Part shown: in pieces, positions 44,185-48,597 of the stretch
Layout of the letters: every line of letters begins with the position of its first letter
Position numbering within the stretch: position 1 is the stretch's first letter
Assembly (NCBI RefSeq): GCF_021172045.1
Contig: NZ_CP087164.1
Coordinates: 4,526,001 to 4,590,000, forward strand
Direction: 5' to 3'
DNA: 64,000 nt
Source of the DNA: Capillimicrobium parvum
GTDB taxonomy: Bacteria > Actinomycetota > Thermoleophilia > Solirubrobacterales > Solirubrobacteraceae
The notes under the pieces: generated by a model
What the model was told of the DNA's origin: nothing
The model's database searches: none
The model's input: the letters and a program-made list of their open reading frames with translations, nothing else
Program-made: the position numbers and the translations under genes

Positions 44185-46329
44185 ATGCCCGCCCCGAGGA
44201 CCCGCCAGCAGAACGTCACCGCCGCCCAGTGGGCGGCCAACGGCGCACTCGGCCCGACCGATCTGACGGAGAACATCGACTACTACGGCGAGAACGTCTT
44301 CTCGCCCGCCATCCAGAAGGACCGGCTGTCGAAGGACACCTACCGCAAGCTCCAGATCGCCGTCGCCAAGGGCGAGGGCCTCGATCTCGGGCTCGCCAAC
44401 GAGGTCGCCAACGCGATGAAGGAGTGGGCGCTCGAGAAGGGCGCGACCCACTACACGCACTGGTTCCAGCCGCTCACCGGGCTGACCGCCGAGAAGCACG
44501 ACTCGTTCTTCGACCCGCAGGGCGACGGCACCGCGATCACCGAGTTCAAGGGCAAGGAGCTCATCCAGGGCGAGCCGGACGCGTCGTCGTTCCCCACCGG
44601 CGGCATCCGGGCCACGTTCGAGGCGCGCGGCTACACCGCCTGGGACCCGACGTCCCCCGCCTTCATCCTCGAGAACCCGAACGGCGCTCTGCTGTGCATC
44701 CCGACCGCGTTCGTCTCGTGGACCGGCGAGGCGCTCGACCAGAAGATCCCGCTGATGCGCTCGATGGAGGCCCTGTCGAACTCGGCCGTGCGCGCGTGTG
44801 AGCTGCTCGGCGTCGAGGCCAACCACGTCTTCACCACGGTCGGTCCCGAGCAGGAGTACTTCCTGATCGACGAGCAGTACTACTTCGAGCGCGCGGACCT
44901 CGTGAACACGGGGCGCACGCTGTTCGGCGCCAAGCCGCCGAAGGGCCACGAGCTCGACGACCACTACTTCGGCTCCATCCCCGAGCGGATCCTCGCGTTC
45001 ATGATGGACGCCGAGCGCGAGCTGCAGCGGCTCGGCATCCCGATCAAGACGCGCCACAACGAGGTCGCGCCGAACCAGTACGAGCTCGCCCCGATCTTCG
45101 AGAACTCGAACGTCGCCAGCGACCACCAGCAGCTGACGATGCAGATCCTGCAGAACAAGGCGCGCGACTACGGCCTCGTCTGCCTGCTGCACGAGAAGCC
45201 GTTCGCCGGCGTCAACGGATCCGGCAAGCACAACAACTGGTCGATGGGGACCGACAAGGGCGTCAACCTGCTCGACCCGGGCGACACCCCGCAGGAGAAC
45301 CTGACGTTCCTGTTCTTCTGCGCGGCGGTCATCCAGGCCGTCAACCGGCACCAGGCGCTGCTGCGCGCGTCGGTCGCCAACGCTGGACAGGACCATCGCC
45401 TGGGCGCCAACGAGGCGCCGCCGGCGATCATCTCGATCTTCCTGGGCTCCGAGCTGACGAAGGCCTTCGAGGCGATCGAGAGCGGCTCGGGCGACGGCGG
45501 CACCGTGAAGGAGACGCTGGAGCTCGGCACGCCGCTGCTGCCGGTGCTGCCCAAGCACGGCGGCGACCGCAACCGCACCTCGCCGTTCGCGTTCACCGGC
45601 AACAAGTTCGAGTTCCGCGCACTCGGCTCGTCGATGTCGCTGTCGCTCCCGAACACGGTGCTCAACACCATCGCGGCCGAGGCCATGGACGACCTGACCG
45701 CCCAGCTGCGGCCCCTGGTCGACAGCGGCAAGCCGCTGATGGAGGCGGTGCTCGAGGTGGTCAAGGACGTCTACGCCGCCAACAAGCAGATCGTGTTCGA
45801 CGGCGACGGCTACTCGGAGGAGTGGCACCAGGAGGCCGAGGCCCGCGGCCTGCTGAACCTCCCGGCGACCCCGGCCGCCCTGCCGTGGCTGACGAACGAG
45901 CAGACGGTCGCGGCGTTCGCGAAGTACAACGTGCTCTCCGAGCGCGAGCTCGAGGCGCGCGAGGAGGTGCTCACCGAGCAGTACGTCGTCAAGCTCAACA
46001 TCGAGGCCGAGACGGCGGCGAGCATCGCCCGGACGCAGATCCTCCCGGCCGTCGTCCGCCACCTGGCGGAGCTGCGGGCGGCCGGCAGCGAGACGCTCAT
46101 CGGCGAGACCGAGGAGCTGCTGCGCGAGCTGGTGTTCGCGATCCAGAAGCTCGAGTCGGTCAACGAGATCCACGAGGACGACACCATCAAGCAGGAGGCT
46201 CGGTACATGCTCGAGACCGTGATCCCGGCGATGGACGCCGTCCGCGAGGTGGCCGACAAGCTCGAGCGCATCGTGGCCGACGACCTGTGGCCGCTGCCCA
46301 AGTACTGGGAGATGCTGTTCATCAAGTAA
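44185..46329 (+). CDS. glnN: Type III glutamine synthetase (GlnN)
   Basis: 714 residues, the length of GSIII rather than the about 450-475 of GSI. GSIII signatures: [50 protein letters not shown] and [20 protein letters not shown]. It makes glutamine from glutamate, ammonium and ATP as a double hexameric ring. The C-terminal 190 residues are the long helical GSIII extension. Divergent from amt-glnK; the shared control region suggests regulation by nitrogen supply. Confidence 0.95.
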
Positions 46330-46402: not shown

Positions 46403-47155
46403 ATGAGCGCCGGGATCGTCTACGAGCTGCTGCGGTTCCGCACGCGCGACCGGGGCGAGACGACGGTCTACCTCGTCCGCCATCCGCTGCGCGCGACGCG
46501 CGTGACGATCCACTCCTTCGAGGAGCCCACGCGCCTGGACCACTGGTGCGCCGCGCACCGCCGCCCGGAGGCGATCGTCGCGGGCTTCTTCGTCCGCGAC
46601 CCGTACCGGCCGCTCGGCGAGGTCCGGCTCGGCGGCGCGGCGGTCGAGCACGAGCCCGTCGCGCAGCCGTGGACCGGTTCGCGGTCCTGCGTGTACGTCG
46701 ACGAGTACGGCGTGACGCTTGGCCCGCGGGAGGCGTTCGGCGCCGCGCCCGACGGCGACCTCGTGCAGGCGGGACCGCTGCTCGTCCACGAGGATCGGGT
46801 GGTCGTCGAGGACGGCGACCGCGAGGGCTTCTCGGCCGGCGCGTCGCAGTTCGACTCGGACATCACGATCGGCCGCTACCCGCGCTGCGCGCTCGGCGTG
46901 AGCGGCGACGAGCTGCTGGCGGTGTGCTGCGACGGGCGGCGGTCGGGGGTCGACGTCGGCCTGGAGCTCGGCGAGCTCGCCCGGCTGCTCGTGTCCTACG
47001 GCGCCCACGAGGCGATCAACCTCGACGGCGGCGGATCGTCGACGCTCGTGCACCGCGGGCACCTCCTCAACCGCCCGTACTCGAACGACGACCAGCCGGC
47101 GCCGGAGTCGCGGCCGATCCTCACCGCGCTGCTCTTCGACCCGGTCTCGAGCTAG
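46403..47155 (+). CDS. Phosphodiester glycosidase (NAGPA/DUF2233) family protein
   Basis: 250 residues, no signal peptide. Family motifs: AIVAGFFVRDPYRPLGEVRL, RCALGVSGDELLAVCCDGR, and the near-universal ending EAINLDGGGSSTLVHRGHLL. The family includes the mammalian uncovering enzyme that removes GlcNAc from phosphodiester-linked mannose; bacterial members are mostly uncharacterised. A cytoplasmic location is unusual since many members are exported. The stop codon lies in the left arm of the hairpin at 47152. Confidence 0.8.
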   Translation: MSAGIVYELLRFRTRDRGETTVYLVRHPLRATRVTIHSFEEPTRLDHWCAAHRRPEAIVAGFFVRDPYRPLGEVRLGGAAVEHEPVAQPWTGSRSCVYVDEYGVTLGPREAFGAAPDGDLVQAGPLLVHEDRVVVEDGDREGFSAGASQFDSDITIGRYPRCALGVSGDELLAVCCDGRRSGVDVGLELGELARLLVSYGAHEAINLDGGGSSTLVHRGHLLNRPYSNDDQPAPESRPILTALLFDPVSS

Positions 47156-47223
47156 TACACCCATCCGCAAGTTCTTCGGGTCTCGGTGGAATACCTCGAA
47201 GAACTTCCGGACGGCTGCACTAG
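47152..47223. terminator. Long imperfect hairpin with 27-nt arms
   Basis: Arms 47152-47178 and 47197-47223 match at 23 of 27 positions, including an uninterrupted 10 bp (AAGTTCTTCG). The 18-nt loop (47179-47196) contains a further GGT/ACC pairing. It starts at the stop codon of the NAGPA-like gene and separates it from the Moco-FNR gene. No T-tract. Confidence 0.65.
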
Positions 47224-47292: not shown

Positions 47293-48597
47293 ATGGCCGA
47301 GGAGCGCTTCACCGGACGCCCGCCCTCCGCCGCGGTCGCGGCCCGGCTGCCGCCCGGCCAGCACGTCGACGACGGCTTCCCGATCCTGACCGTGGGCCCC
47401 ACCCCCGCGATCGCGCCCGACGACTGGCGCATGACCATCGACGGGCACGTGGACGCGCCGGTCGAGCTCACCCTGGCCGACCTGCGCGCGCTGCCGCGCT
47501 CCGAGTACCGCGGCGACATCCACTGCGTGACGGCGTGGTCCAAGCTCGACACGTCGTTCACCGGCGTATCGGTGGACGCGCTGCTCGACCGGGTGACCCT
47601 GCGGCCGGGCGCGACCCACGCGATCGCGCGGTCCTACGGCGGCTACACGACGAACCTGCCGCTCGGCGACCTCCGCGGCGGTCGGGCGTGGGTCGTCTGG
47701 GAGCACGAGGGCCGCCCGCTGGCGCGCGCACACGGCGGGCCCGTCCGGCTGCTCGTCCCGCACCGGTACCTGTGGAAGTCGGCGAAGTGGCTGGCGGGGC
47801 TGCGCGTCCTCGACCGAGACGAGCCCGGGTTCCACGAGCGCCACGGCTACCACAACGACGGCGACCCCTGGCGCGAGGAGCGCTACTCGATCCCGCGCGA
47901 GCGGCGCGAGTGGCAGACGGCCACGGTCGTCGCCACGCGCCGCGAGTCGGCGGCCGCCCGCACGCTGCGGCTCGCACCGGCGACGCCGGCCGCACACGTC
48001 CCCGGCCAGCACTACGACGTCCGCCTGAGCGCACCCGGCGGCTACACCGCGGAGCGGTCGTACTCGGCCGCGTCCTCCCCGCTCGACGGCGACTGGGTGG
48101 AGATCACCGTCGACCGGCTCGAGGACGGCGAGGTCTCCCCGCACCTGCACGACCACGTCGTGCCGGGCGACCGCATCGAGGTCCGTGGGCCGGTCGGCAA
48201 CTACTTCACGTGGCGCGGGCAGGCGCCGCTGCTGCTGGTCGGCGGCGGCTCGGGCGTCGTGCCGCTCATGGCGATGCTGCGCCACGCCCGGCACGTCGCG
48301 CCCAGCCTCGACGTGCACCTCCTGTACTCCGTCCGCGCGCCCGAGGACCTGCTCTACCGCGACGAGCTCGGAGCCGAGACGACCGTCACCTACACGCGCC
48401 GCCCGCCGCCCGGGTGGACGGGCCTCACCGGCCGTCTGACGCCGGACGTCATCGCCGCCCATGCGCGTCCGGACACCGCCGCGTTCGTCTGCGGCAGCCA
48501 CGGCTTCGTCGACAGCGCCGCGCAGGCGCTCGCCGGGCTCGGGCTCGACTGGGAGCGGATCCGCACCGAGCGCTGGGGCCCGGCCGGCCCGGACTGA
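47293..48597 (+). CDS. Molybdopterin oxidoreductase (sulfite-oxidase fold) fused to FAD/NAD(P)H reductase
   Basis: 434 residues. Residues about 1-195: sulfite-oxidase-type Moco domain (IAPDDWRMTIDGHVDAPVEL, DIHCVTAWSKLDTSFTGV with the Mo-ligand Cys near 78, GGPVRLLVPHRYLWKSAKWL). Residues about 205-434: ferredoxin-NADP-reductase-like module with FAD motif RSYSAASSP (near 254), nucleotide motif VGGGSGVVPLMAML (near 315) and VCGSHGF (near 398). The C-terminus has no plant-type 2Fe-2S domain and no cytochrome b5 or Moco dimerisation domain is present. Electrons would pass from NAD(P)H through FAD directly to Mo within one chain. The substrate is unknown; oxyanion or nitrogen-oxide reduction is a guess. 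Confidence 0.85.
   Translation: MAEERFTGRPPSAAVAARLPPGQHVDDGFPILTVGPTPAIAPDDWRMTIDGHVDAPVELTLADLRALPRSEYRGDIHCVTAWSKLDTSFTGVSVDALLDRVTLRPGATHAIARSYGGYTTNLPLGDLRGGRAWVVWEHEGRPLARAHGGPVRLLVPHRYLWKSAKWLAGLRVLDRDEPGFHERHGYHNDGDPWREERYSIPRERREWQTATVVATRRESAAARTLRLAPATPAAHVPGQHYDVRLSAPGGYTAERSYSAASSPLDGDWVEITVDRLEDGEVSPHLHDHVVPGDRIEVRGPVGNYFTWRGQAPLLLVGGGSGVVPLMAMLRHARHVAPSLDVHLLYSVRAPEDLLYRDELGAETTVTYTRRPPPGWTGLTGRLTPDVIAAHARPDTAAFVCGSHGFVDSAAQALAGLGLDWERIRTERWGPAGPD

Follow-up and report, generated by a model that had tools for sequence, protein, structure and literature searches.

A candidate NAD(P)H-driven molybdenum reductase in a single chain: a rare fused form of a widespread gene pair

Can one chain of 434 residues carry electrons from NAD(P)H through FAD to a molybdenum center without a heme or Fe-S cluster, and from what kind of system does such a protein derive? 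The question is raised by a gene in a stretch of 64,000 nucleotides from Capillimicrobium parvum (NZ_CP087164.1, positions 4,526,001 to 4,590,000; hereafter the window). A sequence-only reading of the window had described the product as a sulfite-oxidase-fold domain with the Mo-ligand cysteine, joined directly to a FAD/NAD(P)H reductase module, and had considered it a smaller version of the eukaryotic nitrate reductase design, encoded close to glutamine synthetase. It named a domain search, structure prediction and phylogenetic spread as checks, and separate genes with a clean stop in relatives as evidence that would speak against it. The features on which the analysis rests are, in window coordinates:

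47152-47223 (no strand): long imperfect inverted repeat, about 27 bp per arm (shuffle z = −2.3)
47293-48597 (+): fused gene, ATG start, TGA stop (open reading frame of 434 residues with Pfam domains)
47395-47832 (+): Mo domain PF00174, residues 35-180 (Pfam E = 5e-36, confident model)
47524-47526 (+): codon for the predicted Mo-ligating residue Cys78 within DIHCVTAWSK (no variation across the aligned family; aligns with CVEAWS of YedY, 1xdq)
47833-47835 (+): codon 181, His where relatives have Trp in the PGFWE motif (family alignment)
47887-47910 (+): SIPRERRE linker (residues 199-206), found where relatives have a stop codon and intergenic stretch
47923-48204 (+): FAD-binding domain PF00970, residues 211-304, with the RSYS motif (Pfam, alignment, fold search)
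48235-48522 (+): NAD(P)-binding domain PF00175, residues 315-410, with the GGGSGVVP motif (Pfam, alignment, fold search)

The gene reads as a single open frame, and the Pfam search confirms that its product joins the two modules in one chain: Oxidored_molyb (residues 35-180, 124 bits against a cut-off of 24) is followed by FAD_binding_6 (residues 211-304, E = 6e-10) and NAD_binding_1 (residues 315-410, E = 4e-12), both above their gathering scores. No cytochrome b5, Fe-S or Mo-co dimerization domain scored over the Pfam cut-offs, in agreement with the sequence-only reading that nothing of the kind lies between the modules. The AlphaFold model (mean pLDDT = 90.7, pTM = 0.82) is confident for both halves, with pLDDT values below 50 only at the termini and in linker residues 199-204. 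The reductase half, which contains the RxYS, GGxG and CG motifs in addition to both the FAD and the NAD domains, matches the FNR-type structure 4eh1 (Z = 27.9, 220 residues, 2.0 Å). Because the reductase half filled the list for the whole fusion, with reductases only among the matches listed, placement of the Mo domain relied on its sequence. Direct reading of the N-terminus revealed neither a hydrophobic nor a twin-arginine stretch, bearing out the earlier statement that there is no signal peptide, and the lack of a visible signal indicates that the protein is probably cytoplasmic. As moaA is present in the genome, Moco synthesis is probably possible.

The fusion was found in one genome only, of a species represented by that one sequence, which would fit a sequencing or assembly artefact that masks a stop codon. 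We consider such an artefact highly improbable. Neither of the other two frames contains a stop near the junction, and no in-frame ATG, GTG or TTG occurs between codons 101 and 269, a run of 167 codons without a start for the reductase; a single-base error would therefore not explain the fusion, and a frameshift or stop loss was judged unlikely once all three frames had been checked. The genome (5.95 Mb) is a single contig, and the GC contents at codon positions 1, 2 and 3 of the fused gene (76, 55 and 97%, respectively) are typical for coding sequence. The missing in-frame start near the junction also means that the reductase half is made only within the fused chain.

The relatives show where the architecture belongs. 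In 87/87 other pair loci (Actinomycetota plus one Chloroflexota) the Mo and FNR modules lie side by side as individual genes, the first closed by a clean stop, in the same order as in the fusion and often overlapping; the Mo proteins typically end ..GDPWREERYWND-stop, and the reductase gene then follows mostly within tens of bases. PF00174 occurs three times in the window's own genome: besides the fusion, it is encoded in a split pair at 3.69 Mb and by an unpaired gene at 5.79 Mb. Thus, the separate genes that the sequence-only reading had named as counterevidence are present both in all of these loci and in the same genome, and its picture of a distinct, smaller nitrate-reductase-like design gives way to that of a joined gene pair with a YedY/MsrP-like motif. 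No second stop-free fusion was found in about 1,000 genomes, a figure summed over partly overlapping searches of relatives, the order, a phylum sample and another actinobacterial class, nor were further fusions found in 80 genome contigs. In-frame full-length matches with one TGA were rejected as fusions, being two genes that share a frame. Because the modules are split in every other pair locus and in its own genome, we regard the fusion as a rare and so far singular offshoot of a system that is widespread in two-gene (or three-gene) form.

The PGAP names for the split pair are "sulfite oxidase-like oxidoreductase" and "ferredoxin reductase". This unit shares the modules, order and size of the fusion, with roughly 45-65% identity per half, and differs from it in being two proteins instead of one chain with an 8-residue linker. 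It is also plasmid-borne in Aeromonas, Acinetobacter, Sphingomonas, Sinorhizobium and Streptomyces, and in many bacteria the Mo gene stands without a linked reductase (most of loci L090-L155). A functional description of the gene pair was not found in the literature searched, nor was a paper on B. subtilis YuiH with sulfite oxidase. In one locus (L030, G051:C87) an in-frame TAG interrupts the reductase gene about 102 codons in, next to apparently intact Mo and DUF6510 genes; this reductase gene may be a pseudogene or contain a sequence error. In three Actinomycetospora genomes (L081, L083 and L084) a flavoprotein gene directly follows the FNR gene of the pair, its product being about 28% identical to a mercuric-reductase-like protein of the Comamonas island.

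A concatenated tree of 82 pairs separates two clades, with the fusion in clade II. The FNR tree reproduces both clades completely, and the Mo tree does so with 4/82 sequences displaced; the mirror-tree correlation between the two halves (r = 0.77) includes species relatedness. Clade I pairs mostly have a DUF6510 gene (PF20120) right after the reductase, for example at L076:6398-6676 and L156:7632-7895 and in about 30 further loci, whereas clade II pairs are without it. DUF6510 proteins are of about 90 residues with invariant CxxC..CxxC (four cysteines) and DGN motifs, and in 22/22 of the fetched loci in which the domain scored over its cut-off (296 phylum genomes) the gene adjoins the Mo gene, the reductase gene or both; by gene linkage, it is a near-obligate companion of the clade I pairs. 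In L178 (G128:C289), a DUF6510 gene apparently lies about 80-1200 bases after the Mo gene with no reductase match between them. No paper mentioning DUF6510 was found in the literature searched.

These cysteines bear on whether the FAD module of the fusion is itself the in-chain donor to Mo, or whether a ferredoxin, cytochrome b5-like or DUF6510-type carrier is needed, or the transfer runs between chains. The need for an extra carrier or a second chain is suggested by DUF6510 as the third gene of clade I pairs, with its four invariant cysteines and its place next to the unit in 22/22 fetched loci, and by the occurrence of the FNR fold also in ferredoxin and flavodoxin reductases. However, the fusion's clade is without DUF6510, and the sole copy in the window's genome belongs to the split pair, not to the fusion. 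Moreover, a redox role of DUF6510 is hypothetical: its structural model, considered as a possible rubredoxin, gave weak zinc-ribbon-like matches to solved folds (Z at most 4.7, thus under 5). On balance we consider this alternative unlikely, although it deserves to be taken seriously; direct flavin-to-Mo transfer in the fused chain is plausible.

The Mo active site indicates the nearest known enzymes. Cys78, recognized in the earlier reading as the Mo ligand, is invariant across 151 relatives, and the surrounding HCVTxWS aligns with RCVEAWS of YedY/MsrP, as opposed to the CAGNRR type of plant sulfite oxidase. The CAGNRR-type motif is also that of nitrate reductase. The best solved relative of the Mo-domain family profile is YedY (1xdq), and MsrP is the top-scoring Mo family in NCBIfam, at 44.6 bits far below its cut-off of 207; SorA (33.3/600), SorT (25.2/570) and SoxC (40.4/420 bits, score/cut-off) all fail as well. 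By motif and NCBIfam scores, then, the Mo domain is nearer to MsrP/YedY than to nitrate reductase. The weak likeness to SoxC, SorA and SorT would be expected if the enzyme ran in reverse, as an oxidizing enzyme of the sulfite dehydrogenase type with electrons passing from Mo to FAD and on to NAD(P)+, but the YedY-type motif, which is not that of sulfite oxidase, and the oxidative-repair genes beside some relatives argue against this direction. The known sulfite dehydrogenases rely on cytochromes, which also counts against it, and we regard it as very unlikely.

The fusion has nonetheless diverged. In both trees its terminal branch is long (0.59 against a median of 0.12 for Mo; 0.58 against 0.17 for FNR), and the tryptophan that is invariant in the Mo domains of its relatives is lost (W181H). 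Together these features suggest that the function of the fused enzyme may be shifted or relaxed. Taken further, they could describe a neutral accident, in which a fused paralogue drifts under relaxed constraint while the second, split pair of the genome serves the cell. Yet the 434 codons are unbroken, with third positions at the high GC content given above, and conservation is otherwise high: apart from Trp181 and the conservative V31I, the strongly conserved positions of the Mo domain are kept, as are nearly all of those in the FNR half. A neutral accident is thus quite unlikely.

The gene's surroundings could suggest a connection with nitrogen metabolism. Type III glutamine synthetase (44185-46329) indeed ends 964 bases before the fused gene, so the distance of about 1 kb in the sequence-only reading stands, and an ammonium-transporter-like ORF was noted by inspection upstream. 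However, an NAGPA-domain gene (46403-47155) lies between glutamine synthetase and the fused gene, and the inverted repeat begins at the stop codon of that gene. The inner arms of the repeat occur nowhere else in the genome, and it is likely to be a terminator separating the fused gene from the glutamine synthetase side, or possibly an operator for the fused gene. Downstream, on the opposite strand, is a PNPOx-domain gene. Glutamine synthetase was absent from the gene families common to four or more of 38 neighborhoods, none of the fusion's neighbors was common to the neighborhoods of relatives, and no conserved nitrogen genes were found around these. A glutamine synthetase operon was therefore rejected, since a gene and a hairpin intervene and the linkage is not conserved, and the closeness is incidental.

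For a compact assimilatory nitrate reductase, what can be said is that its two outer folds are those of the eukaryotic enzyme, and that the ammonium transporter-like ORF and glutamine synthetase lie upstream. Against this stand the absence of cytochrome b5 and dimerization domains, HCVTxWS in place of CAGNRR, relatives without conserved nitrogen genes, and the hairpin and gene that intervene before glutamine synthetase. The analogy was rejected on the missing domains and the different motif, the likeness being architectural only, and a nitrate-reducing function has very little probability.

A different functional context emerges from some of the relatives. msrA and/or msrB lie within about 10 kb of the pair in Sphingomonas, Comamonas, Acinetobacter and on a Streptomyces plasmid (where msrA is the msr gene alongside), and msrA is also close to the pair in Micromonospora and another actinobacterial family. 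On plasmids of Aeromonas, Sphingomonas, Comamonas and Acinetobacter the pair is accompanied by varying combinations of msrA, msrB, glutaredoxin, GST, DM13 and thioredoxin-like genes, and these assemblies resemble islands for oxidant or chlorine stress. The same mobile islands (L212, L215, L216 and L219) also carry DUF427, and plasmids of Klebsiella and Enterobacter carry pairs closely similar to theirs. The MsrA and MsrB of the Acinetobacter island (WP_003464967 and WP_003464965) are among those tabulated for their linkage to chlorite dismutase and the oxidative-stress response (PMC9751292). No msr genes were seen beside the other plasmid pairs in the stretches viewed, nor around the fused gene or its nearest relatives, and in a set chosen blind to context msr neighbors occurred in two lineages only (P about 0.02, against a rough, assumed expectation). 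A repair role is thus tentatively backed for part of the family, and extends to the fusion by homology only.

Together, these results lead us to propose, as the probable explanation, that the fusion is a two-gene unit joined into a single chain, in which a small cytoplasmic Mo enzyme of the sulfite-oxidase fold is combined with its dedicated ferredoxin-reductase-like partner to give an NAD(P)H-driven reductase. On the families involved, the FAD of the C-terminal half would accept a hydride from NAD(P)H and then reduce the N-terminal Mo center with neither heme nor Fe-S as intermediary, as the chain has no other redox domain; that the halves exist fused argues for their acting together. The Mo center, with Cys78 as its ligand, would reduce an oxygenated substrate in the cytoplasm, while in the split relatives electrons would cross from one subunit to the other, with DUF6510 taking part in one branch. 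We infer this electron path from domains and gene linkage. The substrate is possibly, though we say so tentatively, a product of oxidant or reactive-chlorine damage, such as methionine sulfoxide or another S- or N-oxide, by analogy to MsrP, which acts in this way in the periplasm. The complete picture is that of a self-sufficient bacterial enzyme of the sulfite oxidase family, 434 residues long, whose Mo is reduced by NAD(P)H via FAD with neither heme nor Fe-S. It would act in the cytoplasm as a reductase of oxidant-damaged sulfur compounds and provide the key to a large uncharacterized two-gene family; as a whole, this picture is somewhat doubtful.

If the proposed explanation holds, the fusion and the conserved gene pair point to the likely electron donor of an uncharacterized cytoplasmic branch and to its direction, NAD(P)H-driven reduction. 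The fusion would offer a compact single protein in which to measure flavin-to-Mo transfer without heme, and the msrA/msrB plasmid islands suggest a testable phenotype, tolerance to hypochlorite or other oxidants.

Among known systems, MsrP/YedY with MsrQ resembles the fusion in its CVxxWS Mo-ligand motif, the 1xdq match and the pairing of a reductase with an electron-donor partner. MsrP is periplasmic (Tat) and fed from quinones by the heme membrane protein MsrQ. Unlike the fusion, it is larger and Tat-exported; the fusion, with its 44.6 of 207 bits, has no twin-arginine signal. The eukaryotic assimilatory nitrate reductase likewise has a SUOX-fold Mo domain at its N-terminal end and FAD/NAD(P)H domains at its C-terminal end in one chain, but adds cytochrome b5 and dimerization domains and has another active-site motif. 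NasN, a nitrate reductase of 1351 residues that presumably carries a NarB-type domain of the DMSO reductase family, is unrelated to the sulfite-oxidase fold. Encoded by MSMEG_4206 of Mycobacterium smegmatis, it is a monomeric Mo enzyme of unusual domain architecture, for which NADPH is reported as the donor (PMC7816997). In its size of about 200 residues, its probable cytoplasmic location and its lack of a dimerization domain, the Mo half of the fusion agrees with the description of group 3 of the sulfite oxidase family, a single-subunit branch described as uncharacterized (PMC7759655). The same review, from 2020, places FAD in the sulfite oxidase family only in plant nitrate reductases (PMC7759655), whereas here FAD is predicted in the same chain or in the product of the adjacent gene.
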